Assembly: GCA_009773635.1 (NCBI GenBank) | Contig: WSYC01000020.1 | Coordinates: forward strand, 1-64,000 | Direction: 5' to 3' | DNA from: Beijerinckiaceae bacterium | Lineage (GTDB): Bacteria; Pseudomonadota; Alphaproteobacteria; Rhizobiales; Beijerinckiaceae | DNA length: 64,000 nucleotides | Part shown: positions 9,489 to 26,963 of the stretch, in pieces | How positions within the stretch are numbered: position 1 is the first letter of the stretch | Layout: every line of letters starts with the position of its first letter | Notes under the pieces: model-generated | Seen by the model: the letters and a program-made list of their open reading frames with translations, nothing else | What the model was told of the DNA's origin: nothing | Databases searched by the model: none | Made by a program: the position numbers and the translations under genes

Positions 9489-9917
9489 TCAATCCTGAAC
9501 CGGTGATTTCAAAGGCGGGGTGAGGGCAGAGGCCGCGGGCAATTCCGAAATGGGCGAGCTGGATGCTGGCATGGGCGGAATCCGGGCAATCGATTGCTTG
9601 CGGAAGATTTCAGGCCGCTGCCGCCACGGCACGATGCCGTCCTCGCTCTGGGCATAGAGCGCCGCGCCCTCGATGATCGCCAGGGCATGCAGAACGGGGT
9701 CGAGATTGCCGTAAACATACGACCATTTGCCCGGCGCGGCCAGCGCCACGGAGCAGCCATTGTTGCACGCCGAGAGGCACTCGGCGCCGATGATCGTGAC
9801 ACCCGCCGGGGTCTCCTGCGCCTCGATCAGCCGCAACAGTTCAGCGCCGGGGCGTGGTGCATCAGGCGCATCGGCCCGGCGGCAGGTGGTGCAGACGTAA
9901 AGCGTGGCCGTGGCCAT
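9489..9917 (-). CDS. DUF1636-type metal-binding / thioredoxin-fold [2Fe-2S]-like protein
   Basis: MATATLYVCTTCRRADAP...GAECLSACNNGCSVALAAPGKWSYVYG; first gene after the riboswitch. Confidence 0.75.
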   Translation of the reverse strand: MATATLYVCTTCRRADAPDAPRPGAELLRLIEAQETPAGVTIIGAECLSACNNGCSVALAAPGKWSYVYGNLDPVLHALAIIEGAALYAQSEDGIVPWRQRPEIFRKQSIARIPPMPASSSPISELPAASALTPPLKSPVQD

Positions 9918-10014
9918 GAAACCCCTTTCACCAGCAGGCAAAGGGTGTCCCAGAGGGGCTGCGCAAAGCAGACCCTGCCGGCTACGGAACACCCCGTCCG
10001 TCCGAAAATCGCGT

Positions 10015-10195
10015 GTGCTGGCAGGTCTCCCGGCTTGCGGATCACGGGTCGGGGGAAAACCCCAAACCCAGCGGCTCACTACCTTCCCAGCCCGAAAGCC
10101 AGTGGATTAGTGCGCCTTTCCGGTCACGGTCGCGGGGGCGGCTGCGCTTCGGGTCTCCCCTATCGCATTCCCTCTTCGCCTGTCATAGACAGGAA
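10015..10195 (-). promoter_or_regulatory. Cobalamin (AdoCbl) riboswitch leading DUF1636-cobW-cobN-cobGHIJ
   Basis: Minus strand carries B12 box AAGCCGGGAGACCTGCC (10020-10036) plus upstream GCCGCCCCCGCGACCGTGACCGG, CCACTGGC and GGGAAGGTAGTG conserved blocks in canonical order. Confidence 0.92.
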
Positions 10196-12333: not shown

Positions 12334-13011
12334 TTATCGCTCTTCCCACACCGTCGGGGTGTTCTCCTGCCAGCCTGTCCGGTGCAGAAGCGGCGTATCG
12401 TCGTGGGTTTCTGGCCAGCCTAGGCAAAGGTAGGCCGAGAAGCGCCAGCCTTCCGGCACCTGGAGAAGGTGTTCCATGTGGCGCGGATCGAGAATCGAGA
12501 CCATCCCGAGGCCGAGGTTTTCTGCCCGTGCCGCAAGCCAGAGCGTATGGATCGCCATCGCGGTGGATTGATGCAGGGTTTCCGGCATGGTGCATCGCCC
12601 AAGCCGATGGCCAGCTTCAGGATCTTCCAGCATGAAAATGGCGAGTTGCTCCGGTGCGCGGTCCAGCCCCGCAAGTTTGAGGCGGGCATAGACCTCAGCA
12701 TGTTCTGGATCATATCCAGCGGCTGCGACCCGGTTTTCCTGTTCGAAAAGCGCGCGGACCGCTGCGCGCAGAGTGGCGGATTTCACCGAGAGAACGCGCC
12801 ATGGCCGGGCATTGCCGACCGAAGGCGCAAGGGCCATCATGGTCCGCAATCGCACCAGAAGGGCCTCGGGTACTGGATCAGGGCGGAAATGACGGACATC
12901 CCGCCGCCAGCGCAGCAGGGTTTCAAGTCGCGCGGCATCCTCCGGGGAAAAATTCACGATTCCCCCCGCGGCGGTGAAACCGGTTTCAATGCCTCCGCCA
13001 GGCGTGTCCAT
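12334..13011 (-). CDS. bluB: 5,6-dimethylbenzimidazole synthase
   Basis: LLRWRRDVRHFRPDPVPE...APSVGNARPWRVLSV...GLGMVSILDP; BluB nitroreductase-like motifs. Confidence 0.92.
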   Translation of the reverse strand: MDTPGGGIETGFTAAGGIVNFSPEDAARLETLLRWRRDVRHFRPDPVPEALLVRLRTMMALAPSVGNARPWRVLSVKSATLRAAVRALFEQENRVAAAGYDPEHAEVYARLKLAGLDRAPEQLAIFMLEDPEAGHRLGRCTMPETLHQSTAMAIHTLWLAARAENLGLGMVSILDPRHMEHLLQVPEGWRFSAYLCLGWPETHDDTPLLHRTGWQENTPTVWEER

Positions 13012-13940
13012 TCAGGTGCGCAGCCAGGTATTCCAAGGCGTATCCAGTGCCGGGAAAAGGGGAAAATCCGGCTCCAGATATGATGTCGGGCCAGCGCCTC
13101 CTGCGCGGTGATCGCATCGGGCACGGCAAAAAGCCTGAACAAGGATGTCCCGCCGACGCATTGCCAGCCTGCTGCTAGGGCCAGTGCATCGAGCAGATCC
13201 GCTTCCAGTGCAAGGCGCGCGCGGGTGGCTTCCTGCCAGTTGGTATCGCTGAGGGCCGCGGTCCCGATCTCGATCGCCGGCCCGGACACTGGCCAGGGGC
13301 CAGCAAGCTCGCGGAGCGAAGCGATGATCTCCGGCGAGCCGAGCGCGAAGCCAAGTCGAAGCCCGGCCAGACCATAGAATTTGCCGAAAGATCGCAGGAT
13401 GATCAGGTTCTTCCGCCCGGCCTGCGGGGCGAGCGACACCTCCGGCGTTGCATCCGCGAAGCTTTCATCCACGATCAGCAGGCCGACATCATGGCTGAGA
13501 TCAAGCAACGTCGGGAGCGAAAGGGTCCGGCCATCGGGATTGTTGGGATTGACGACAACCGCGAGATCAGCCCCGCGCAGTGCTTCAGGCGTTGCGACCG
13601 GTTCAACAGTCCAGCCCGCTGCAGCGAGGCTTGCAGCATGTTCATTGTAGGTCGGCGAGAGAACCCTTGCACATCCCGGCAGAATAAGGCGTGGCAGGAG
13701 CTGGATGGCGGCCTGCGCTCCCGGCAAGGGCGCGATATCCGCTTCGCTTGCATAGCAGCGCAAGGCAGCAGCCATGAGCCTGCCGATCTCGGTTTGTGTG
13801 GGAAGTCCCGTCCAAGTAGTCGAGGAAATCGCTGGCACGGGATAGGGGATTGGGTTGATCCCGGTCGAAAGATCGATCCAGGAACCGGCACCAAATCGCG
13901 CAACGGCCATGTCGAGGTTTCCGCCATGATCGCGCATCAT
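12954..13940 (-). CDS. cobC: Threonine-phosphate decarboxylase / cobalamin aminotransferase-fold protein CobC
   Basis: DLSTGINPIPYPVP...VVNPNNPDGRTL...LLIVDESFADATPE...ILRSFGKFYGLAGLRLGFA; class I/II PLP fold. Confidence 0.9.
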   Translation of the reverse strand: MMRDHGGNLDMAVARFGAGSWIDLSTGINPIPYPVPAISSTTWTGLPTQTEIGRLMAAALRCYASEADIAPLPGAQAAIQLLPRLILPGCARVLSPTYNEHAASLAAAGWTVEPVATPEALRGADLAVVVNPNNPDGRTLSLPTLLDLSHDVGLLIVDESFADATPEVSLAPQAGRKNLIILRSFGKFYGLAGLRLGFALGSPEIIASLRELAGPWPVSGPAIEIGTAALSDTNWQEATRARLALEADLLDALALAAGWQCVGGTSLFRLFAVPDAITAQEALARHHIWSRIFPFSRHWIRLGIPGCAPEWTRLAEALKPVSPPRGES

Positions 13941-14884
13941 TGCACCGCGAACGCCAAAGTGCCGAGGGCGACCGCGAGGAGCAGGATCACCCGGCGATAG
14001 AGGGCAAGACCGGCAAGGATATCAGCGGCTGCCGGGTCGCGCTTGCAGGCATTGACCCACGGCTCGTCCGACACCGCACCCTCGTAGGCGCGCGGGCCGG
14101 AAAGCCGCACCCCTAGAGCGCCTGCCATCGCCGCTTCCGGCCAGCCAGCATTCGGGGAGCGATGATGGTCGGCATCGCGCCAAGCCGTTGCGATTGCCGC
14201 GACCGGGCGCGAAGAGGCGAGGGCGAAGAGAAGAGCAGTCAATCGCGCTGGAACGAGGTTGACGAGATCATCGAACCGGGCCGAGGCCCAGCCGAACGCC
14301 GAGAATCGCTCCGTGCGATGGCCGATCATGGAATCGAGCGTGTTGATCGCCTTGTAGGCGGCCAGCCCCGGCAACCCGAGCAGCGCGCCCCAGAACAGCG
14401 GGGCGACGATCCCGTCCGAGGTGTTTTCCGCGAGGCTCTCGATGGCTGCGCGGCTCACGCCTGCTGCATCCAGAAGATCCGGATCGCGCCCGACGATCTT
14501 GGAAACCTCGATCCGTGCACCGGCCAGATCACCCGCGTCCAGCGGCACCGCGATCGCCCTGACATGCTGATGCAGGGATCGCGCGGCAATGAGCGGCCAG
14601 CCCGTGATCCCTGCGATGAGCATCGCGGGAGTGCCGGCCGGAAGGCTCCGCTCCAGCATGAGTGCGAGGAGGGCGGCAGTGCCCGCCACGAGGACCAGCA
14701 CGAGAACCCCGGCGAGGCGACGCTTGAGCGCCGGCCATGTACCCCGGTTGAGTTTTCCCTCCAGAAACAGGATCTGGCGCCCGATCCACGTCACGGGGTG
14801 CCCGATGCGCCGGAACAGGCCGTCCGGCCAGCCGACAGCAAGATCAATTCCCAGAGCGACGAGCATGACAACCGGCAAATTCAT
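13937..14884 (-). CDS. cobD: Adenosylcobinamide-phosphate synthase CobD/CbiB
   Basis: DLAVGWPDGLFRRIGHPVTWIGR...SLAENTSDGIVAPLFWGALLGLPGLAAYKAINTLDSMIGHR; CbiB motifs. Confidence 0.93.
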   Translation of the reverse strand: MNLPVVMLVALGIDLAVGWPDGLFRRIGHPVTWIGRQILFLEGKLNRGTWPALKRRLAGVLVLVLVAGTAALLALMLERSLPAGTPAMLIAGITGWPLIAARSLHQHVRAIAVPLDAGDLAGARIEVSKIVGRDPDLLDAAGVSRAAIESLAENTSDGIVAPLFWGALLGLPGLAAYKAINTLDSMIGHRTERFSAFGWASARFDDLVNLVPARLTALLFALASSRPVAAIATAWRDADHHRSPNAGWPEAAMAGALGVRLSGPRAYEGAVSDEPWVNACKRDPAAADILAGLALYRRVILLLAVALGTLAFAVQ

Positions 14885-15012: not shown

Positions 15013-16230
15013 TCAGGATGGCGCATGGACATGGCATGTCATGGGCATGCTTCCGGCGTGCCGGAATGTCAGCACCAGATCGACCGTGCTTCCGGGATCG
15101 GGCACATCGGGGATATCGAGCAGCATCAGATGCAGACGGCCGGGCTGGAGGCGAATGGTGCTTCCCGCCGCGAGAGGCAGGGGCAGGCCCTCGCCTGCAA
15201 GAATATCGTCATGGCCTCCGGCGGCGTGGATGGCGATGCGCGCCGAGAAGCAGCACTCGATCGCCAACAGCATGTCGTCGAACGTGCCAAGATTAGTAAT
15301 CTCCATGAACCCGGCCAGTGCATTGTCTTCCACCATCGCCTTGCGGACGAAAGCCTGCCGGATGCGGATCGCGCCGGCTTCCGCCGCTGCTAACGGCAGA
15401 TCGGGCTCGACAAGCGCACCATCTGTCTTCTTCAGCCGCTCGCCGGGCTGGAAAGCCCAGGGCGAGACGGGTTCTCCGCCCTGTGCGAGATGCCTGTCAG
15501 CGATGCCTTCGAGGGCTTCCGGCGTCAGGTTTCCATACCAGATGTTATCGGGCTGGATGCCGACGAGCGGCGCGAAATTGCACGGTCCCTGACAGTTGGT
15601 GGTGAGACAGAGAACCTCGTTCTCTTGGAGATCATCGGGTTTATGCGGGCCGAAACGCCGGCGGAGCTGGTCATAGATCACGGCAGCGCCGGCTTGCGCG
15701 CAGCGCGGCCCGAGGCAGACCAGCGCCACACGCGAGACATCGGGAATGCGCGAGGCGCCGGCCTTTATCTTCAGCGGCTTGATCGCCTCGCGGACATCGG
15801 TGCCAAGCCGGGCGCGCTCGATCACGGCACGCACCGGGGAAAGCTGGTCTGCTATCCCGTCGAGCGGATCGGCGAGAACGACACGCATTGCGCCAGCTTC
15901 CTCCGCGCTCCAGCGGCTGAGCCAGCGCCCGATCCAGCCCTTGAGATTACGGTCGAACGGAATGATCACGGGGACGACGACAACAGAGCGCACGCCCTCA
16001 TCGCGCAGGTGGAGCAGCACCACTGAAAGCGCGGGATCGGAGAGTTCCGCGAAGGCGATTTCACTCCGTTCCGCGAGGCCCTCATTGACAAGCGCTACCC
16101 CAATCTCGTCAAGCGTCCGCCGCTGTTCGCCGAGCGGCATGCCCCGCCCCAGCAGGACGGCAACCTCGAAAGCGGGCGATGGCGGCGCGGTATTAGCCAT
16201 TTCTCCCGGAGTGATCTCGTTCATGCTCAT
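15013..16230 (-). CDS. Three-domain fusion: CbiX/SirB-like (catalytic His not conserved) + thioredoxin-fold [2Fe-2S] ferredoxin + PCuAC-like domain
   Basis: One 405-aa ORF. N-term VAVLLGRGMPLGEQRRTLDEIG...VVVVPVIIPFDRNLKGWIGRW resembles CbiX; middle LVCLGPRCAQAGA...LCLTTNCQGPCNFAPLVG; C-term LAGFMEITNLG...IAIHAAGG...LAAGSTIRLQPGRLHLMLLDI resembles PCuAC. Confidence 0.72.
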   Translation of the reverse strand: MSMNEITPGEMANTAPPSPAFEVAVLLGRGMPLGEQRRTLDEIGVALVNEGLAERSEIAFAELSDPALSVVLLHLRDEGVRSVVVVPVIIPFDRNLKGWIGRWLSRWSAEEAGAMRVVLADPLDGIADQLSPVRAVIERARLGTDVREAIKPLKIKAGASRIPDVSRVALVCLGPRCAQAGAAVIYDQLRRRFGPHKPDDLQENEVLCLTTNCQGPCNFAPLVGIQPDNIWYGNLTPEALEGIADRHLAQGGEPVSPWAFQPGERLKKTDGALVEPDLPLAAAEAGAIRIRQAFVRKAMVEDNALAGFMEITNLGTFDDMLLAIECCFSARIAIHAAGGHDDILAGEGLPLPLAAGSTIRLQPGRLHLMLLDIPDVPDPGSTVDLVLTFRHAGSMPMTCHVHAPS

Positions 16231-17009
16231 CGCTTCTCTCCGGAGTGTCGGGCATGCATCGGCACGATGACCGGCATCGCCTGTCCCTGTTGATCGGGAA
16301 TCGCGAACTGGCGCATCGCAACCCCGTAGAGCCGCGTGAGGTTCGCCTCGCTCATGATGGTGTCGACCGGACCGGAAAGCGCCGCCTCGTTCTTCATCAT
16401 CAGCAACGCATCATCGGCGGCGGCCAGCGCGTGATTGGGGTCGTGCGTGGTGAAGAGGATCGTCATTTCGCGCGCCTGCCGGAGATCATTCAGGAGGTAG
16501 AGGAGCCGGCCCTGATTGCCAAGATCAAGCGCCGAGGCCGGCTCATCGAGCACCAGCACGTCCGATCCGGTTGCGAGCGCACGGGCGATCAACCCCATCT
16601 GCCGCTCGCCGCCCGAAAGCCGCGCAAAGGGTTCACCGGCCAGATGGCGGATCCCGACGCGCTCGATCGCGGCATCGGCGGCGCGGTAATCCTCCGGTGA
16701 GGGCTGGCCGAAAAGGCCGACCCGGGCGCAGCGCCCCATCACCACCATCTCGCGCAGGGCGTGGGGCGCGGGGATCGTGAGGAGTTGCGGCACGTATCCG
16801 AGTCGGTTCGGGGCTGTCCGCTCTCCCTCAGTGAGGGGAAGAAATCCGAGGATCGCATGGAGGGCTGTCGTCTTGCCGCGCCCGTTCGGGCCGAGAATGG
16901 CAAGCGTCGCGCCATGCTCGACCGCAAGGTCCAATCCGCGGAAAATCCAGCGGGAGCCGAAGCGCATGCCGGCGCGGTTAAGGGCGATCTTCATGGGGGT
17001 GATCTTCAT
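16227..17009 (-). CDS. FepC/BtuD-type ABC transporter ATPase
   Basis: AILGPNGRGKTTALHAILG, ARLSGGERQMGLIARAL, DVLVLDEPASALD. Confidence 0.92.
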   Translation of the reverse strand: MKITPMKIALNRAGMRFGSRWIFRGLDLAVEHGATLAILGPNGRGKTTALHAILGFLPLTEGERTAPNRLGYVPQLLTIPAPHALREMVVMGRCARVGLFGQPSPEDYRAADAAIERVGIRHLAGEPFARLSGGERQMGLIARALATGSDVLVLDEPASALDLGNQGRLLYLLNDLRQAREMTILFTTHDPNHALAAADDALLMMKNEAALSGPVDTIMSEANLTRLYGVAMRQFAIPDQQGQAMPVIVPMHARHSGEKR

Positions 17010-18052
17010 GCCTCGCGCTCCCGGAAATGCCGGCGCAGCAACAGCGCAAAGATCGGTGCGCCGACAATCGCCGTCAGCACGCCGAGCGGGATTTCCGCCG
17101 TTGTCGCGGTGCGAGCGATGGTGTCGGTCACCACCAGGAAGCTCGCGCCGATAAGTGCGGTGACGGGCAGCGCGACGCGCTGGTCCGGTCCGACGATGAG
17201 GCGGCTGATATGCGGGATGATCAGCCCGACCCAGCCGATGATGCCGCTGACCGCGACACTCGACGCCACCACGATTGCTACGAGGCCGAAGACGAGCCAG
17301 CGTTCCCGTTCGGGGTGCGCGCCAAGGCTGCGGGCCTCGTTCTCGTCAAGCGAGAGGATATTGAGGCGAAAGCGCAGGGCCAGCAGCACCGACGAGCCGG
17401 TGACAAGGCCCGGCGCGGCAAGCCCTGCCTGCTCCCAGGTGGCGCTGGCGAAACTGCCCATCAGCCAGTAGACGATCGCGGGCAGCGAGCCGTTGGGATC
17501 AGCAACGAACTGGATCAGCGAGACCAGCGCGGAAAACAGCGACCCGACAACAAGCCCGCCGAGCAGGACGGTGACGGTCTCCGTCCGGCCGTCAATCCGC
17601 GCAATCCAGCCGACCAGCACGAGCGCACCAAGACCGCAGGCGAAGGAAAGGCCGAGTAGCCCCACGCCTGATATCCCGAGGAAAATCGCCAGCGCCCCGC
17701 CAAAGGCGGCGCCGGGAGAAATCCCGAGAATCTGCGGCGCCACGAGCGGATTACGGAATACGCATTGCAGCGCCCCGCCACAAATCGCCAGCCCCGCGCC
17801 CGCAAGGATCGCCAGCACAAGGCGCGGCAGACGTACCAGCAGCAGGATACGCGCATCCACAGCCAGCGGCGCGGCGGGATCGGTGATGGCCTGGCCGAGA
17901 ATGGCGATCACGCGCGAGGGAGCAATCGGGAATTGCCCGACGCCGAGCCCGACAAGGCTCGCGGCCACCAGGAAGGCGACGAGAAGCGTGGTCGTCGCGA
18001 CACGCCGGGATTGCCGGCTTCCTGCCGCGACGAGGGCATCAGCGAGAGCCAT
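17006..18052 (-). CDS. FecCD/BtuC-type ABC transporter permease
   Basis: RLPRLVLAILAGAGLAICGGALQCVFRNPLVAPQILGISPGAAFGGALAI; GIIGWVGLIIPHISRLIVGPDQR. Confidence 0.93.
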   Translation of the reverse strand: MALADALVAAGSRQSRRVATTTLLVAFLVAASLVGLGVGQFPIAPSRVIAILGQAITDPAAPLAVDARILLLVRLPRLVLAILAGAGLAICGGALQCVFRNPLVAPQILGISPGAAFGGALAIFLGISGVGLLGLSFACGLGALVLVGWIARIDGRTETVTVLLGGLVVGSLFSALVSLIQFVADPNGSLPAIVYWLMGSFASATWEQAGLAAPGLVTGSSVLLALRFRLNILSLDENEARSLGAHPERERWLVFGLVAIVVASSVAVSGIIGWVGLIIPHISRLIVGPDQRVALPVTALIGASFLVVTDTIARTATTAEIPLGVLTAIVGAPIFALLLRRHFREREA

Positions 18053-18053
18053 C

Positions 18054-19166
18054 CTAGCGGCTCCGCAGCGCGTCGTATCCGGCAGCGGAAGCGTGGATCG
18101 GCAAGCGCAGGATGCCATCGATCTCCGTGTCCTTCAGCTCATAGGCGTAAAGTTCCCGGAATCGCATCCGGATCTCCCCGCGCAGGTCGAAGGCGAAAAC
18201 CTTCGGATGAAGCAGGTTCGCGAGCCACATCCAGGTCAGCGGTGATTCCTGGTTGGGCGGGTCCCAGCGATAGCCGCCAAGCGGATATTTGTAGACGCGT
18301 TTCGTGCGCGCCGCCGCCGTCTGCGACAGGATGGGGTCCTTGTAGATAAACTCCGGGGTCAATTCCTCCTCAAAACCGTTGAGGAAAATCACCTCCGGGT
18401 CCCAGGCCGCGATCCGCTCGCGGTTCACCGGCATGACATCGTTGAGCGCGGCGGCGACATTCTCGCCACCGGCCAGCGTGATCGAGGCATCCTCATAGCT
18501 GCCGCGCCCGGAGGCCGCCATCGCCGTCATCGCGCGCGAAAGATGCAGCACGCGCGGTTTTTGCGCGGGTGGAATGGCCCGCACCTTGGCACCGATCTCG
18601 GCCTCGACGCTTCTGCGCCACGCGATATTGGCAGCCGCGCGTTCGGGTTTGCCGATGGCGGTCGCGGCCAGCGTGATGTAGCGGCGCGCGTAATCCTCGG
18701 TACCATAGAGGATCAGCATGGTGTTCAACCCGGCATTGGTCAGCGGCTTGACGATATCGTCGCCGCGCCCGCCCCACTGGATGACGAGATCGGGCCGCGC
18801 GGCAGCCAGCGCCTCGACATTCGGCATGAAGTTCTGGCCCGCGATATCCGCGCGGATATCGGCGGTTTCGGGGAAGATCTTGCCCAGAATGCCCTCAAGC
18901 ATCGCGGTCTTGGCGATCCTGTTCATGCCGGCGAGGCTCTTCGTGCCCTGACCCATCGCAATGAGGATCGAGGCCATCGGGATCGGGATGGCGGCAACGC
19001 GTTCGGCCGGCTTTTCGAGGGTGACGGTGCGCCCTTCAAGGTCGGTCATCACGATCGGCTCGGCCCGCACTAAGGCAAGCGGCACGGTGAGGAGGGCGGC
19101 AAAGGCGAGAAGCGCGGCGCAAGGCCGGATCGCAGGACGGCGAAATATATGGCAACGAAATATCAT
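18054..19166 (-). CDS. FecB/BtuF-type ABC transporter substrate-binding protein
   Basis: Signal peptide; VTLEKPAERVAAIPIPMASILIAMGQGTKSLAGM...YKYPLGGYRWDPPNQESPLTWMWLANLLHP. Confidence 0.88.
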   Translation of the reverse strand: MIFRCHIFRRPAIRPCAALLAFAALLTVPLALVRAEPIVMTDLEGRTVTLEKPAERVAAIPIPMASILIAMGQGTKSLAGMNRIAKTAMLEGILGKIFPETADIRADIAGQNFMPNVEALAAARPDLVIQWGGRGDDIVKPLTNAGLNTMLILYGTEDYARRYITLAATAIGKPERAAANIAWRRSVEAEIGAKVRAIPPAQKPRVLHLSRAMTAMAASGRGSYEDASITLAGGENVAAALNDVMPVNRERIAAWDPEVIFLNGFEEELTPEFIYKDPILSQTAAARTKRVYKYPLGGYRWDPPNQESPLTWMWLANLLHPKVFAFDLRGEIRMRFRELYAYELKDTEIDGILRLPIHASAAGYDALRSR

Positions 19167-19299
19167 GGGGTTCTCCCGTGGCGGCGCGGTGCGCGATGAC
19201 AATCAACCCCCGGACGCCCCGGTTTCCCGATGCGCCGACGATCATGACAATCACCTCTGCGGACAGCCGCCCCATGACGCGCCCCGCGCCTCGGGTGGG

Positions 19300-19464
19300 T
19301 GACAGACCACGGCAGGTCTCCTGGCTTGCGGGTCGTGGCCTGTGCTCCGCCTTCCCAACACCGGAATAACGGCATCAGTGGCTTGATGGAGGAGGCTCGC
19401 CGCTTACAGTTGCGGGGGCAGCCACAGCATTCACCCGGAACCAGGTGGCACTGCGTTCCCTTTT
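19300..19464 (-). promoter_or_regulatory. Cobalamin (AdoCbl) riboswitch leading the ABC importer / fusion-protein operon
   Basis: Minus strand: GGCTGCCCCCGCAACTGTAAGCGG, GCCACTGATGCCG, TGGGAAGGCGGAGC, then B12 box AAGCCAGGAGACCTGCC (19311-19327). Confidence 0.95.
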
Positions 19465-19639
19465 AAGTTCATTCGGCCTTGCGACCTCCGGGACACCGTC
19501 GTCGGGGCGATGCTAGGCACTGCCGTGGGGAAAGGCAACGTAGTTCTTTCCCGGTCGGTGAGGGGGATACTGCACTGATGCAGGATCCGGAAGTGAGCAG
19601 CAGCAACCGGGCGGCTCGACGAGCGTTGCCGACGCATGG

Positions 19640-19850
19640 CGAGGAATCTCGTGATTTTGGTCGAAGCGCTCGCTGTTTTCGTTCGCTTTTGGCCGACCAC
19701 GAGCCTGCAATCGTCGGAGCCTGCCCCGATCATGAGCGAGACATCACCCCGCCCACAGTCGAGATCAAGCACGCGCATCCCCTCGGTGATATCCATTGAG
19801 CGCGGGGCAAATTCCGACGCCATCACGCCGCTTCGGCCCTGCGCCAGACC
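19640..19850 (-). pseudogene. Decayed class I SAM-methyltransferase fragment
   Basis: ASEFAPRSMDITEGMRVLDLDCGRGDVSLMIGAGSDDCRLVVG matches MTase motif I (VLDLGCGxGDVSL) but the ORF loses homology after ~45 residues. Confidence 0.5.
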
Positions 19851-21052
19851 GGAAACGGGTCGGCCAGGGTGCGGTACTTCTCGGGGTTGAATTTCAACGG
19901 CATGGACTCGCCCAGAAGGCACTGATCAAGCGCCGAGCGGATCGCCATTTCATCCAGCCCAATGCCGATGAAGACCAACTCCTGCCGCCGGTCCCCCCAG
20001 ACGGAATGCCAGTGGCGATTGAGAATCTGCCGCCATTCCTCGGATTTCGGCCAGCGATCACGCGGCACATTTGCCCACCAGAACCCCATGGCTTCCGTGC
20101 GGCAGACAGCGCCGGCAATCGAGAGTTCGCCCACCCACTCCGGCCGTGTCGCCAGCCAGAAATGCCCCTTTGCACGCACGAGACCGGGACAGGACTGCTT
20201 GAGAAAAGCCGAGAATTTCTCCGGGTGGAAGGGGCGGCGTGCCCGGTAAACGAAGGAAGAAATGCCGTATTCCACGGTCTCCGACACATGGTCCGCGAAA
20301 CCGTAAAGTTCCTTTGCCCAGAGCGGATGCCCTTGCGCCTTCTCGTAGTCGAAGAGGCCGGTATCCATGATCGCATCAAGCGGAGCCTTGCCGAAATCAG
20401 TTTCAACAAGGCGGGCATCGGGATTAAGGGAGCGCACCACCTTGCGCACGAGTTCGCGCTGCTCGGCTGAGACGTCCGAGATCTTGTTGATCACCACGAC
20501 ATCGGCAAACTCAATCTGGTCAGTCAAGAGATCAACAAGGCTGCGCTCATCGGCAGCTCCTGCCGTTTCACCGCGATCCCTGAGGAAATCGGTCGAGCCG
20601 AAATCCTTCATGAGATTAACGGCGTCGACCACCGTAACCATCGTATCAAGCCGCGCGACGTCGGAGAGCGAGAGGTCATTCTCGTCGCGAAAATCGAAGG
20701 TCGCGGCAATCGGCAGCGGCTCGGCAATCCCGGTGCCCTCGATCAACAGATAGTCAAAGCGCCCGTCCGCAGCGAGCCTTCGCACCTCGGCGAGAAGATC
20801 ATCCCGCAGGGTGCAGCAGATGCAGCCATTAGACATTTCAACGAGTTTTTCTTCGGTGCGGGACAAGCCGCCGCCCTCGCGTACCAGATCGGCGTCAATG
20901 TTCACCTCGCTCATATCGTTGACGATCACAGCGACGCGCTTACCCTCACGGTTGTTCAGGATATGATTGAGCAGCGTCGTCTTGCCCGCGCCAAGGAAGC
21001 CGGAGAGGACAGTAACGGGCAGGCGGGCATCGGCATTTGACGGTTCAGGCAT
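19823..21052 (-). CDS. COG0523 (CobW-like) GTPase, putative zinc metallochaperone (ZigA/YeiR type)
   Basis: [43 protein letters not shown], CobW C-terminal domain; divergent from zur with a Zur-like box between. Confidence 0.88.
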
Positions 21053-21082
21053 CGGTAAAATTCTCTCGTTGCGAAAATTCAA

Positions 21083-21105
21083 GATATGTAACAATATAAC
21101 ATACC
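21083..21105. promoter_or_regulatory. Putative Zur box between COG0523 gene and zur
   Basis: GATATGTAACAATATAACATACC: 11-bp arms around a central A, 8/11 symmetric matches; resembles ATGTTATAnTATAACAT-type Zur sites. Confidence 0.65.
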
Positions 21106-21135
21106 ATCTTAAGTCAAGAGTGATGGGAGATTTTC

Positions 21136-21621
21136 TTGGCGATCACACTTCAGGACAAACCCACGGGTGAGGAAATCGATATCCCGATTGTTGGGCCCGC
21201 TATTCGCCCTGCGCATGAGCGCGGCGAGAGCGCGACAAAGCTGCGCCAGAAAGTTCTGGAAACTCTCTGCGGATCAGCCATCCCGCTCTCGGCCTACGAT
21301 ATTCTTAGCCAGATCCAGGGCGAGAAGCGCATCGCACCTACACAGGTTTATCGTGCACTCGATAGCCTTCAGGAAGCGGGCGCCATTTACAAATTGGCCT
21401 CCCGCCCAGCCTTCGTGTTGCGTGCTTCCGCGCCGGATACCGGTCGGAGCGTCGTGTTCATGGTGTGCAGAGAATGCGACCGCGTGCAGGAAAGCGCGGT
21501 TTCGAGCTCGGTTCAGCACCTGCAGGTAACTGCCGCCAAAGCAGGTTTCCGCGCCAGCAATCCGATCGTGGAAATCGTAGGTGAATGCGCGGATTGTGGG
21601 AGTGAAGGGCGCACCATCTGA
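21136..21621 (+). CDS. zur: Zur, zinc uptake regulator (Fur family)
   Basis: Fur-family [25 protein letters not shown]; structural Cys pairs VCREC and CADC; TTG start. Confidence 0.82.
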
Positions 21622-21678
21622 TATCTGTGCAGAATGCCGAGAGTTCTTACATGGCCTTGAGCCCGGAATGGTCGCGCT

Positions 21679-22104
21679 TTAACAGCGCTTGCGGCAATAG
21701 AGTTCGAGCTTGTGGCGCACGATGTCGTAGCCCAGCCTGGCGGCGATTTCGGTCTGCAATTTTTCGATCTCCTCTGATCTGAACTCGATCACCATGCTGG
21801 TATCAAGGTCGATCAGATGATCGTGGTGCTCGGCATCGGTATTTTCAAAACGGGCACGCCCTTCGTCGAAAGCGTGCCGCTGGATGGCGCCTTTCTCCTC
21901 CAGCAGCCGCAGGGTGCGATACACCGTCGAGAGCGAGACGGTACCGTCGATGGCATAGGCACGATGATAAAGCTCGTTCGCATCCGGATGATCGCTCGCC
22001 TCCGCGAGGACCCGCAGGATGACCTTGCGTTGCTCTGTCATGCGCAGTCCGACAGTCTTGATATCGGCGCAGAATCGTTCGTAGCGATCATCCGATTTTG
22101 TCAT
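21679..22104 (-). CDS. Fur-family regulator, Mur/Fur type
   Basis: MTEQRKVILRVLAEASDHPDANELYHRAYAIDGTVSLSTVYRTLRLLEEKGAIQRHAF...HHDHLIDLD; divergent from the sit operon. Confidence 0.85.
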   Translation of the reverse strand: MTKSDDRYERFCADIKTVGLRMTEQRKVILRVLAEASDHPDANELYHRAYAIDGTVSLSTVYRTLRLLEEKGAIQRHAFDEGRARFENTDAEHHDHLIDLDTSMVIEFRSEEIEKLQTEIAARLGYDIVRHKLELYCRKRC

Positions 22105-22134
22105 AATGAGAATCTACCCCTTTTGCGAAGCAAG

Positions 22135-22192
22135 TGCAAAAACAATTTGCAAATAATTCCTAATTGCCGTTGACAGATGCAAATCGTTCGCA
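22135..22192. promoter_or_regulatory. Two Mur/Fur-like palindromes in the mur / OMP-sitABCD intergenic region
   Basis: TGCAAA-AACAA-TTTGCA (22135-22151, perfect 6-bp arms) and TGCAAATCGTTCGCA (22178-22192), the second placed just after a TTGACA -35 (22170-22175). Confidence 0.65.
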
Positions 22193-22226
22193 TTAGCGTT
22201 TCTACTGATCAACAAGGAGATGTGGC

Positions 22227-23219
22227 GTGACAACAGACGGACGACGGCAGCGACGAGCGGGCCCTATTTCTGTGATGACATCGGCCTTGGCCGCACTGGC
22301 GGTGAACGTGTCTGCGCAGGCGGCGGATCTTCGCAAAAAGCCGACAGAGTCACCAGCGCCGGCGGCACAAGCGTGCAAGGAAACGGCCGGGCTTTCGCCC
22401 GATATTTTCGGTTTCGCGGCGGGATCGGATGTCGCCGATCTCGGATCGTGGAGTGCCGGAGCGGAATATGGCGGTGCTTTCGGAACGCGATTTGGCAGCC
22501 TTCAAAGCCATGGCCTGAAGCTCCAAGCATCGACGTCACCTTTTCCCTGTCTTGAGGTTGGTCCATCGCTCACGTTTGGCGCCGGGCGCAGCAACGAGCG
22601 AATCGGCCAGACCTCCACAATCAGCAATGCAATCGGCGGCGGTATCGAATTCAAATACAAGCTCCTCGGGCGCTCGATCCATGGCATCGGGCTGACCTTG
22701 GTTGTGGAGCCGACCCTGGCGCGCGGTTATTCCCGCCTCAACGATCCCTTTGCGTCGCCGGCCATCTCGGGTACCGGCCTGCTGGCGGGCAATACGCTCA
22801 AGATTCTTATCGATTCTGAGTTGGTGGAGGATCGGCTCTATGGTGCATTCAACGTCGAGCACGGCTTGGGCTTGACCCGGAGTGACGTCAACGGTTGTAC
22901 GACAAACAGCGGCTCGGGCTATTGCCGGGCCTCCAATCTGAACCTGCGCGCGGCGCTCTCCCTCAAGGTGGCCGATAATTTCTATTTCGGCGGTGAGGTC
23001 TCGCATCAGCGAGCCTATGACGGGGCATTCCTGAACCGCGGACTTGGCCATGCCTGGTTCGCCGGCCCCAACTTCCTCTGGCAGATCAACGAGAAACTCT
23101 CGATGAATGGGGCCTGGGCGTCCCAGATCGCCGGCAAGTCGAACGGCCAGACCAATTCCCTCAACCTCGAGCAGTTCAATCGCCATCTGGCGAAGGTGAA
23201 GCTCGGCTATGCTTTTTGA
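22227..23219 (+). CDS. Outer-membrane beta-barrel protein, candidate metal channel
   Basis: Signal-peptide-like N-terminus, alternating beta pattern, C-terminal ...LAKVKLGYAF; first gene before sitABCD; GTG start. Confidence 0.6.
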   Translation: MTTDGRRQRRAGPISVMTSALAALAVNVSAQAADLRKKPTESPAPAAQACKETAGLSPDIFGFAAGSDVADLGSWSAGAEYGGAFGTRFGSLQSHGLKLQASTSPFPCLEVGPSLTFGAGRSNERIGQTSTISNAIGGGIEFKYKLLGRSIHGIGLTLVVEPTLARGYSRLNDPFASPAISGTGLLAGNTLKILIDSELVEDRLYGAFNVEHGLGLTRSDVNGCTTNSGSGYCRASNLNLRAALSLKVADNFYFGGEVSHQRAYDGAFLNRGLGHAWFAGPNFLWQINEKLSMNGAWASQIAGKSNGQTNSLNLEQFNRHLAKVKLGYAF

Positions 23220-23238
23220 ACAACAAGGAACCGATCTC

Positions 23239-24186
23239 ATGTCGCATCGTGCTTTTTCACCGTTCCGGCGGCGACTTTTCAGCCTGGCATCCTTTTCGAT
23301 CGCGGTTGCAATCACCGCCTTTGCCTTCGGCGGGGCGTCCCAGGCCCAGACCCCGAGGGCGCCTGGAAAGCCGTTGCGGGTGGTGACCACCTTCACCATC
23401 CTTCAGGACATCGCGCAGAATGTCGCGGGAACGGCAGCCATCGTCGAATCCATCACCAAGCCCGGCGCCGAGATTCACGATTATCAACCGACGCCGCTGG
23501 ACGTGGTGAAAGCGCAATCCGCCGATCTCGTGCTGTGGAACGGGATGAACCTGGAACGCTGGTTCGAGAAGTTCTTCGAGAACGTCCGAAACGTGCCGAG
23601 CGCCGTTCTGACCGATGGCATCGAGCCGATGGGCATCAAGGAAGGGCCCTACGAGGGCAAGCCAAACCCCCATGCCTGGATGTCCACCCAGAGCGCGCTG
23701 ATCTATGTCGAGAACGTCAGGAAGGCGCTCGCCAAGGCCGATCCGGCCAATGCGGCTGTTTATGCGCAGAATGCAGCGGCGTATTCCGCCGAAATCAAGG
23801 CTATGGATGCGCCGCTCCGTGAGCGGCTGGCGAAAGTGCCGGAAAAGCAGCGCACCCTCGTCAGCAGCGAGGGCGCCTTCAGCTACCTCACTCGCGATTT
23901 CGGCTGGAAGGAAGCCTATCTCTGGCCCATCAACGCGGATGAGCAGGGCACCCCGCAGCAGGTGCGGCGCCTGATCGATCTCGTCCGCAAGAACAAGATT
24001 CCCGTCGTCTTCAGCGAAAGCACGGTTGCCGACAAGGCCGCAAAGCAGGTCGCGCGCGAAACCGGCGCAAAATACGGCGGCGTGCTGTATGTCGACAGTC
24101 TGAGTGCGGCGAATGGACCGGTGCCGACCTATCTGAAACTGCTAGAAGTAACAGTCGAAACCATCGTCAAGGGGTTCGGAAAATGA
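23239..24186 (+). CDS. sitA: Mn/Fe ABC transporter substrate-binding protein
   Basis: [17 protein letters not shown]...[31 protein letters not shown]...NPHAWMS; ZnuA/SitA family. Confidence 0.88.
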
Positions 24187-24217
24187 CGGGCGGCGAGGCA
24201 ACGAGAGGCCGGACGAC

Positions 24218-25156
24218 ATGAAAAGTCGCGTGCTTGAAATCCATTCAGAAACACCGGCGCGGAGCTTATCCGCGCCGTCTGGCCGCTTGATGCCCTCCAT
24301 CCAGGTCAACAACATTACCGTCAGCTATACCAATGGCGTGGCGGCGGTGCGCAACGCCTCCTTCAAGCTCGGCGCATCCACGATCTGCGCGCTGGTCGGC
24401 GTCAACGGTTCGGGCAAATCGACGCTCTTCAAGACGCTGATGGGGTTCCTGACGCCTTCGAGCGGCGACGTCCGGATTGCGGGGTTGCCCGTCAATACGG
24501 CTCTCAAGCGAGGGCTCGTGGCCTATGTGCCGCAAAGCGAGGATGTCGACTGGAACTTCCCCGTTCTCGTCGAGGATGTGGTGATGATGGGGCGCTATGG
24601 CCACATGAGTTTCCTGCGCATGCCCGCCAAATCGGACCGGCAGGCGGTTGATGAGGCGTTGGAGCGCGTCGGGATGAGCGATTATCGCAAGCGCCAGATC
24701 GGCGAGCTTTCAGGCGGCCAGAAAAAGCGCGTCTTTCTGGCCCGCGCCCTCGCGCAAGGCAGCGAGATCATTCTACTCGACGAACCCTTTACCGGCGTTG
24801 ACGTGAAGACCGAATCCGCGATCATCGATCTCCTGCGCGCCATGCGCGATGACGGGCGGCTGATGTTCGTTTCGACGCATAACCTCGGCAGCGTGCCCGA
24901 CTTCTGCGATCAGGTGGTGCTCTTCAACAAGACTGTTTTGGCCTATGGACCTACGGCAACCACCTTCACAGAGGCCAATCTGGCGGAAGCCTTCGGCGGG
25001 CTGCTCCGCCACGTGCGCCTTGGCGGCTCCGATCTCCACGATGACGCCGACCAGCGGCGCGTGACGGTGCTGACCGACGACGAGCGCCCGCTGGTTCTCT
25101 ATGGCGAGCGCGATCAGGAAAAACACATCAAGCCCGATCGTGGCGGGGCATCATGA
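24218..25156 (+). CDS. sitB: Mn/Fe ABC transporter ATPase (start may be 24290)
   Basis: [45 protein letters not shown]. Confidence 0.9.
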
Positions 25157-26091
25157 TGTTGTTCTCCGCAGTGATCGACCTCCTTCTTGAACCCTTCGCC
25201 TATCAGTACATGACCAAGGCGATCTGGGTCAGCGCGCTGGTGGGCGCGGTCTGTGCCTTCCTGTCCTGCTATCTGATCCTGAAAGGCTGGGCCTTGATGG
25301 GCGATGCGCTCGCGCATTCGGTCGTGCCCGGCGTGGCGCTGGCATACCTTATGGGGCTGCCCTATGCGCTGGGGGCCTTCACTTCGGGCATCATCGCCGC
25401 GCTCGGCATCTCGTTTGTCCGGCGGCTCACGATGCTCCGGGAGGATGCCGTCATCGGTCTGGTGTTCACGACCTTCTTCGCCATCGGGCTGCTGATTGTC
25501 TCGATCAACCCGACTTCGGTGAATGTGCAATCCATCGTGCTGGGGAATATTCTCGCGATTTCGGATGAGGATGTCGTGCAGGTCATCATCATCGCTGCGA
25601 TCTCGCTCGCGATCCTCGGGCTCAAGTGGAAAGACCTGATGCTGGCCTTCTTCGACGACAGCCATGCCCGCAGCGTCGGGCTTAACCCCTGGCGTCTGCG
25701 CGTCCTGTTTTTCGTGCTGCTGAGCGCCTGCACGGTTGCTGCGCTCCAAACCGTTGGAGCGGTGCTGGTGATCGCAATGGTCGTGACCCCCGGCGCGACG
25801 GCCTACCTGCTGACGGATCGCTTCGGTGTCATGATCGGTCTGGCCATGATCATCGGCGCCACGACAAGCGCGCTGGGCGCCTACCTCAGCTTTTTCATGG
25901 ATGGCGCGACCGGCGGGCTGATCGTCGTCTTCCAGACGCTGGTGTTTCTCGCAGCCTTTGTCTTCGCCCCCAAACATGGGCGGCTGGCGGCGCGGCGGGC
26001 AGCAAGAGCATTTTCGAGCGAAGTAGATGCCGGTTCGCGTGAAGAAAATGCGGTAAAGCGCTCTGGGCTGGAAGAGGAGACCACAGCATGA
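25153..26091 (+). CDS. sitC: Mn/Fe ABC transporter permease
   Basis: ABC-3 family: [39 protein letters not shown]. Confidence 0.9.
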
Positions 26092-26963
26092 TCCCGCTCG
26101 ATTTCTCCTCTCTCTTTTCCTGGATCATCGATCCCCTGGCGCACGGTTTCATGCAGCGCGGTCTTGTTGTTGCTGTTCTTGTGGGGGCGATCTGCGCGCT
26201 TTTGTCCTGCTATCTCGTGCTCAAGGGCTGGTCGCTGATGGGGGATGCGGTTTCCCATGCGGTTCTGCCCGGAATCGTTCTGGCGCATGTCATCCAGATA
26301 CCGCTGGCGATCGGGGCATTCGTGGCCGGGCTCGGCTGTGCATTGGCAACGGGATATCTCAAGGCGAACAGCCGGATCAAGGAAGACGCGGTGATGGGCA
26401 TTGTCTTCTCCGGCATGTTCGCGCTCGGGCTGGTGATGTTCGTCAAGGTGGATACCGACCTTCATCTCACCCATATCCTGTTCGGCAACATGCTGGGCGT
26501 GCAATGGCCCGATGTCGTGGAAGCCGCGCTGATTTCGGTCCCCGCGATCCTCATCGTTCTCGCCAAGCGCAAGGACCTGCTGCTCTATTGCTTTGATCCG
26601 GCGCACGCCCGCGCCATCGGGCTGCCCGTCGGCTTGCTGCATTTCGGGCTGCTGACCCTACTGGCCCTGACAATTGTCGCCTCGCTCAAGGCGGTGGGGA
26701 TCATTCTGGTCATTGCCATGCTGATCGCGCCCGGCGCCATCGGATATCTTATGACCAAGCGGTTTGATGTCATGCTGGCCATTGCAGCGGCGGCAGCGAT
26801 CGGGTCGAGCGTGATCGGCACGATCCTGAGCTTCCATATCGACGGGGCGACAGGCCCGACCATTGTCGTGGTGCAATCCGTTGTGTTCGTGCTGGCGCTA
26901 GCGTGGACAAAGCGGCCAGGAAAATCTGGTCTTGCTGAGACAGGGGCTAAATCAAGCGCTTGA
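26088..26963 (+). CDS. sitD: Mn/Fe ABC transporter permease
   Basis: ABC-3 family: SCYLVLKGWSLMGDAVSHAVLPGIVLAHVIQIPLAIGAF; overlaps sitC by ATGA. Confidence 0.9.
   Translation: MIPLDFSSLFSWIIDPLAHGFMQRGLVVAVLVGAICALLSCYLVLKGWSLMGDAVSHAVLPGIVLAHVIQIPLAIGAFVAGLGCALATGYLKANSRIKEDAVMGIVFSGMFALGLVMFVKVDTDLHLTHILFGNMLGVQWPDVVEAALISVPAILIVLAKRKDLLLYCFDPAHARAIGLPVGLLHFGLLTLLALTIVASLKAVGIILVIAMLIAPGAIGYLMTKRFDVMLAIAAAAAIGSSVIGTILSFHIDGATGPTIVVVQSVVFVLALAWTKRPGKSGLAETGAKSSA

Follow-up and report, generated by a model that had tools for sequence, protein, structure and literature searches.

A cobalamin-riboswitch importer operon of a Beijerinckiaceae bacterium encoding a three-domain half-chelatase/[2Fe-2S] ferredoxin/PCuAC protein, and its two-domain relatives

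To our knowledge, the release, reduction and hand-on of cobalt, or of the cobalt of a corrinoid, between the importer and CobW in aerobic B12 producers are largely undescribed. The class II chelatases of the CbiX-S/CfbA type (PF01903) keep two metal-binding catalytic His residues, and tetrapyrroles are ligands of the CbiX/SirB fold. The PCuAC proteins known so far reside in the periplasm. Among the described importers, CbtJKL of Sinorhizobium meliloti is headed by a riboswitch, like the ABC importer analyzed here, and CbtJ is encoded in the operon of this demonstrated Co(II) importer (PMC7689651). FhuF is a cytoplasmic [2Fe-2S] ferric-siderophore reductase (PMC8068687), and PmoF carries PCuAC domains with altered copper sites, a PCuAC-DUF1775 fusion being also known (PMC8424229). 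Here we compare with these systems a 405-aa protein, P0001, encoded in a window of 64,000 nucleotides (positions 1 to 64,000 of contig WSYC01000020.1).

The three-domain protein and its folds

P0001 is encoded on the minus strand (16230-15013; the preliminary description had given no strand), and its ATG start shares nucleotides with the stop codon of the preceding ATPase gene. Pfam matches were obtained with PCuAC (residues 290-395, E 1.8e-15; the PF04314 profile scores 57.2 bits, above its cut-off of 29.4) and with 2Fe-2S_thioredx (residues 170-244, E 2.3e-6), while the CbiX match lies just below the cut-off when the whole protein is searched (residues 30-123, E 2.7e-4) and above it with the N-terminal domain alone (E 2.5e-5). 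An AlphaFold model derived from an alignment of 13 sequences (mean pLDDT 66.6, the N-terminal domain being the best part and the PCuAC part being of low confidence) matched PDB structures of CfbA/CbiX, of PCuAC and of the Aquifex [2Fe-2S] ferredoxin. The open reading frame, the Pfam matches and the model matches thus bear out the single 405-aa frame with three metal-linked modules that had been proposed, with the same folds as those named at that time. The possibility that the fusion is an artefact was rejected, since the frame is open, the codon-position G+C is uniform across the three domains, and the same fusion and operon order occur in a second genome. Neither the N-terminus nor the stretch preceding the PCuAC part was found to contain a signal peptide or a hydrophobic stretch upon inspection of the sequence.

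The second genome (G1313), which belongs to another genus of the same family, carries the one further three-domain copy found. The two proteins are 65% identical over residues 19-403, and the substrate-binding protein, permease and ATPase, encoded in the same order, are 77, 78, and 66% identical to those of the window; the whole operon reads riboswitch-nrdA-nrdB-substrate-binding protein-permease-ATPase-three-domain protein. The dN/dS values between the two copies (Nei-Gojobori) were 0.19, 0.16, and 0.22 for the three domains in order, and although these values are rough because dS is about 1.4 and thus near saturation, they indicate purifying selection on all three domains.

The half-chelatase domain (residues about 20-150; 15781..16173, minus strand) is identified by its fold, profile and Pfam match: it resembles the CbiX-S/CfbA chelatases and the SirB lobes (TM-score to target up to 0.69), with a profile match over 108 positions. 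It differs from these enzymes in that neither of the two metal-binding catalytic His residues is present: the profile alignment with 3LYH and CfbA places Arg29 and Asn95 there, which confirms the loss of the chelatase His reported previously. A His was found at either catalytic position in none of the 41 aligned homologues, nor was any conserved His detected near these positions that might act as a shifted ligand, whereas, two divergent members apart, position 29 is always an Arg or a Lys. Since the His residues are missing from all 41 sequences, the degenerate chelatase is a stable trait of the family and not the decay of one gene. This conserved His-less state, together with the absence from the genome of any other CbiX-family or SirB protein, P0001 being the sole one, supports the previous idea that the chelatase part has been repurposed. 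In Bacillus subtilis SirB, the residue aligned with Arg29 is Arg134, the GRG Arg of the second lobe, which is non-catalytic; a contact of Arg134 with the tetrapyrrole has been predicted by docking (PMC11301274), and in this respect P0001 resembles the non-catalytic lobe.

The thioredoxin-like [2Fe-2S] ferredoxin domain (residues about 165-262; 15445..15738, minus strand), recognized by its Pfam match, its fold and its Cys residues, contains five Cys (172, 177, 208, 213, and 217) and not four as stated initially. The four presumed cluster ligands, Cys172, 177, 213, and 217, are indeed invariant in the 41 aligned sequences, and Cys208 is an extra residue specific to the subfamily. These four Cys and the fold (TM-score to target 0.73) are common to the thioredoxin-like ferredoxins (Aquifex ferredoxin 1F37; NuoE, PF01257), from which P0001 differs by its fusion to a half-chelatase and by Cys208. 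The presence of a [2Fe-2S] cluster is therefore predicted from the fold and the four Cys.

The PCuAC-derived domain (residues about 285-405; 15016..15378, minus strand) was compared with the canonical PCuAC protein of the window (52927-52340, minus strand). The copper motif of the PCuAC proteins is HXnMX21/22HXM (PMC13006917), and the full motif is not present in P0001: His335 and the His367-x-Met369 pair are retained, but the internal Met is missing, the MxM pair being lost. The preliminary description was therefore right about the altered copper site, but not in stating that only one His stays, since His335, His367 and Met369 are all kept. Both three-domain copies have the first His and the HxM pair without the internal Met, and both show a loop His (His340, followed by two Asp in P0001) preceding His or acidic residues, as well as Cys399 and His402 at the C-terminal end. 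Inspection of the two copies showed no signal peptide. P0001 consequently resembles the PCuAC copper metallochaperones (PF04314) in scoring above the family cut-off and in keeping His335 and the HxM pair, and differs from them by the lack of a signal peptide, the loss of the internal Met, the gain of a His/Asp loop and the fusion to cytoplasmic domains. Unlike PmoF and the PCuAC-DUF1775 proteins, which are extracytoplasmic, it thus appears to carry a copper-chaperone domain that has moved into the cytoplasm and altered its set of ligands.

PCuAC-SCO-PepSY copper clusters also lie near a riboswitch/Nik-type operon at two other loci (L097, 12574-15220, minus strand; L099, 1217-3957). These loci belong to two genomes of one genus, in which the copper cluster is arranged differently. 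On closer reading, these copper clusters proved to be separate units.

The riboswitch operon and the two-domain family

The operon is headed by a cobalamin riboswitch (RF00174, 112.8 bits; 19294..19515) and continues on the same, minus strand with the genes for a periplasmic substrate-binding protein (Peripla_BP_2; 18054..19202), a BtuC/FecCD-type ABC permease (17006..18118) and an ABC ATPase (16227..17009), P0001 being the fourth gene. It is followed by genes for the cobalamin biosynthesis protein CbiB/CobD (13937..14884; assigned by sequence and homologues), a CobC-like aminotransferase/decarboxylase (12954..13940; assigned by sequence, a homologue adjoining cbiB in L063 and L117) and a BluB-like nitroreductase (12334..13011; by sequence). 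No terminator-like site was predicted between P0001 and cbiB. The B12-riboswitch operon described previously is therefore real, and the P0001 gene is probably switched on at low vitamin B12. The permease gave its best score against BtuC.

A second cobalamin riboswitch heads a DUF1636-CobW-CobN set, and a third one on the same contig is followed by the gene for a CbiM-like protein and by other cob genes. The DUF1636 protein (9489-10079 of the window, minus strand), located after the second riboswitch and before CobW and CobN, shows a CxxC...CxxxCxxxC pattern and is another small Cys-rich protein without assigned function in a B12 operon. Since CobG, H, I, and J as well as CobN are present in this genome, B12 appears to be made by the cobalt-late route. 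The cobalt-late CobN route needs no CbiX.

The relatives of P0001 consist of the half-chelatase and the ferredoxin without PCuAC. None were found in viral contigs, nor in a first scan of genome contigs with P0001, and a tighter alignment used to query the genome contigs gave 11 named loci. Where the two-domain proteins are annotated at all, they are mostly called "(2Fe-2S) ferredoxin domain-containing protein," which is also the PLSDB/NCBI name of the plasmid relatives; this name covers only the ferredoxin half and conveys no function. The conserved unit is therefore the two-domain protein, and not the three-domain fusion on which the preliminary description focused, PCuAC being a rarer, lineage-specific addition. 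A description of the two- or three-domain family, or of a cobalamin-riboswitch importer with a ferredoxin, was not found in open-access papers (a prior mention in the subscription literature, which lies outside this search, is possible). Neither form is thus described in the open papers searched, in line with its earlier designation as a candidate undescribed system, and the family joins known folds in a conserved way that appears to be new, within a clear physiological setting.

The context of the family genes was surveyed at 30 loci outside the window, over about 20 kb where available (L045-L050, L055-L065, L096-L104, L114, L117, L119, and L120), among which the Azospirillum loci are closely related and do not count as independent. 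At 24 of the 30 loci, the gene is preceded on its own strand, at a distance of no more than about 9 kb, by a cobalamin riboswitch (all but L049, L055, L063, L100, L101, and L117). Since each genome has only one to six cobalamin riboswitches, this linkage is far beyond chance. At 26 of the 30 loci, an ABC importer adjoins the gene or lies a few kilobases from it. The link with cobalt or corrinoid import proposed at the outset is thus strongly supported by the context in many genomes, while the sensing role suggested along with it received no support.

The importers belong to two classes: FecCD/BtuFCD-type importers, often accompanied by a TonB receptor, and Nik/Dpp-type importers, in which the family gene is the first one after the riboswitch. 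Many of the relatives have a NikA-like importer, and this family is better known in connection with metals and peptides. Other contexts consist of cob clusters (L063 and L117) and riboswitch-nrdA-nrdB operons (L114, L119, and L120); induction under B12 shortage is expected for the genes of both. In L102, a BtuB-like receptor, as read from the sequence, precedes the family gene. The members associated with Nik-type and FecCD-type importers are broadly separate in the tree, with some exceptions and several long branches. The family accompanies riboswitch-controlled importers in several proteobacterial orders, and one actinobacterium has a family gene with an importer.

Possible functions

The reading that we prefer, which we consider plausible but short of probable, is that P0001 works in the cytoplasm as a post-import factor of an importer under cobalamin-riboswitch control, where it accepts and reduces an imported cobalt chelate or corrinoid and uses its PCuAC domain as the metal acceptor. 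A tetrapyrrole- or chelate-binding fold without the metal-binding His, a one-electron [2Fe-2S] centre, an importer and induction upon B12 shortage are most simply explained together by a protein reducing and releasing an imported cobalt compound. Co(II) is labile, in contrast to the inert Co(III) complexes. The half-chelatase domain, probably dimeric, would bind the imported cobalt complex (chelate or corrinoid) without any metal chemistry of its own, an Arg or Lys replacing the His, and the [2Fe-2S] domain would provide one electron and thereby turn the inert Co(III) into the labile Co(II) form, in the manner of FhuF with Fe(III)-siderophores. The cytoplasmic PCuAC-derived domain, where a His/Asp loop stands for part of the Met ligation, would hold the released Co(II), for which its larger number of N/O ligands may be better suited than for Cu(I), and would hand it to CobW/CobNST. 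The likeness to FhuF is restricted to this proposed role, that of a cytoplasmic [2Fe-2S] protein reducing an imported metal chelate; the fold and the cluster motif are unrelated, and the metal proposed here is cobalt. The folds, the absence of the His in the 41 homologues, the four conserved Cys and the linkage to importers and riboswitches all speak for a post-import factor, as do the alignment of Arg29 with Arg134 of SirB, the riboswitch-headed operon of the second three-domain copy and the purifying selection on the three domains. Against it, the S. meliloti cbtJKL importer works without such a gene nearby, no relative of P0001 being present in the stretch read around it; no reductase partner for P0001 was identified. 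The nearest plasmid relatives of the window substrate-binding protein, moreover, belong to operons with neither an assigned substrate nor a riboswitch, and the PCuAC part of the model is of low confidence. As a conserved candidate, the half-chelatase/[2Fe-2S] family might fill the step between the importer and CobW.

The evidence on the substrate points in two directions. In the Azospirillum group, the substrate-binding protein is homologous to S. meliloti CbtJ over its whole length (25%, 1e-25), and the TonB outer-membrane receptor scores 286 bits as a siderophore-type receptor vs. 82 bits as a B12-type one; both of these features favor a cobalt chelate. The substrate-binding protein of the window is only marginally similar to CbtJ (113 residues, 26%, E 2e-4) and is not its ortholog, which speaks against a cobalt chelate, and the presence of cbiB, cobC, and bluB in the operon fits corrinoid salvage. 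These three genes and the cob clusters elsewhere are equally compatible with corrinoid handling, which counts against the preferred reading.

It is possible, although we regard it as doubtful, that the protein is dedicated to corrinoids: the fold would serve as a tetrapyrrole cradle, and the [2Fe-2S] centre would reduce or dealkylate the corrinoid cobalt for CobO, CobQ, and CbiB, in a role like that of the salvage chaperone MMACHC/CblC. Besides the operon mates, the tetrapyrrole-binding ability of the CbiX/SirB fold, the family genes inside the L063 and L117 cob clusters, the BtuB-like receptor of L102 and the best score of the window permease against BtuC are in line with this idea, whereas the siderophore-type receptor of the Azospirillum group, the CbtJ-like substrate-binding proteins and the NikA-like importers of many relatives are not, and the added PCuAC domain is left unexplained. 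The presence or absence of CobH was also tried as a means of separating cobalt supply for synthesis from corrinoid salvage, but it did not separate the two. Among 29 genomes, six carrying the two-domain protein gave no CobH/CbiC match (G193, G276, G351, G423, G1142, and G1174; L150-L155); in the stretches read, CobN was present in all six and CobW or later cob genes in five of them, most having CobW, CobO, CobQ, or CbiB nearby. These genomes possibly have a partial B12 pathway starting from cobalt insertion, or their CobH may have been missed.

A more specific version of the post-import reading, which we consider rather unlikely as a whole, is that the two-domain His-less protein is dedicated to releasing cobalt from imported Co(III) chelates by reduction, on behalf of importers of two unrelated classes, and that two genera of one alphaproteobacterial family have recruited a periplasmic copper chaperone domain as a cytoplasmic Co(II) acceptor.

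That P0001 might be a redox or Fe-S accessory or a regulator of the importer itself, acting for instance by ATPase gating or metal/redox signalling without any substrate chemistry, is unlikely. The translational coupling with the ATPase gene via the overlapping ATG and stop, the consistently cytoplasmic sequences, and the invariant cluster Cys in a protein without any known catalytic residue would fit such a role. However, the family pairs with two unrelated importer classes and also occurs without an importer in cob and nrd contexts, which makes a fixed contact with one transporter improbable.

It is very unlikely that Cu(I) binding persists in the PCuAC domain and that the protein shields cobalt/B12 metabolism from copper. 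Although His335 and His367-x-Met369 of the copper motif are intact (PMC13006917) and PCuAC-SCO clusters lie near the riboswitch operon in the two related genomes of L097 and L099, the internal Met has been lost and the loop His gained in both three-domain copies, the signal peptide of the periplasmic PCuAC proteins is missing, the riboswitch points to B12 and not to copper, and those clusters are separate units. That P0001 is an active chelatase, for sirohydrochlorin or otherwise, whose ligands have moved to other positions can practically be dismissed in spite of the CbiX fold and the lack of any other CbiX-family protein in the genome, given that none of the 41 sequences has a conserved His at or near either position and that the CobN route used here has no need of CbiX.

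Other gene sets near the importers

The importers L122 (9823-11635), L125 (9826-11638), and L123 (9839-11599) are close homologues of the window importer without a cobalamin riboswitch. At these loci, P0001 is replaced by an unrelated set of uncharacterised downstream proteins (of about 436 and 170 aa, or split in Methylosinus). The nearest plasmid relatives of the window substrate-binding protein were rejected as a clue to function, since they have unrelated proteins in the place of P0001 and no cobalamin riboswitch.

In two Azospirillum loci (L045, 1945-6676; L061, 1927-6640), genes encoding CobN-like, MotA/ExbB and DUF2149 proteins directly precede the riboswitch importer operon; this set resembles those proposed for the removal of metal from tetrapyrroles.

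Directly beside the B12 operon of the window, positions 19823-26963 harbor a zinc-starvation cluster, in which a ZnuABC-like importer and regulators resembling Zur and Fur are found together with a ZigA-type COG0523 GTPase whose score exceeds the NCBIfam cut-off.
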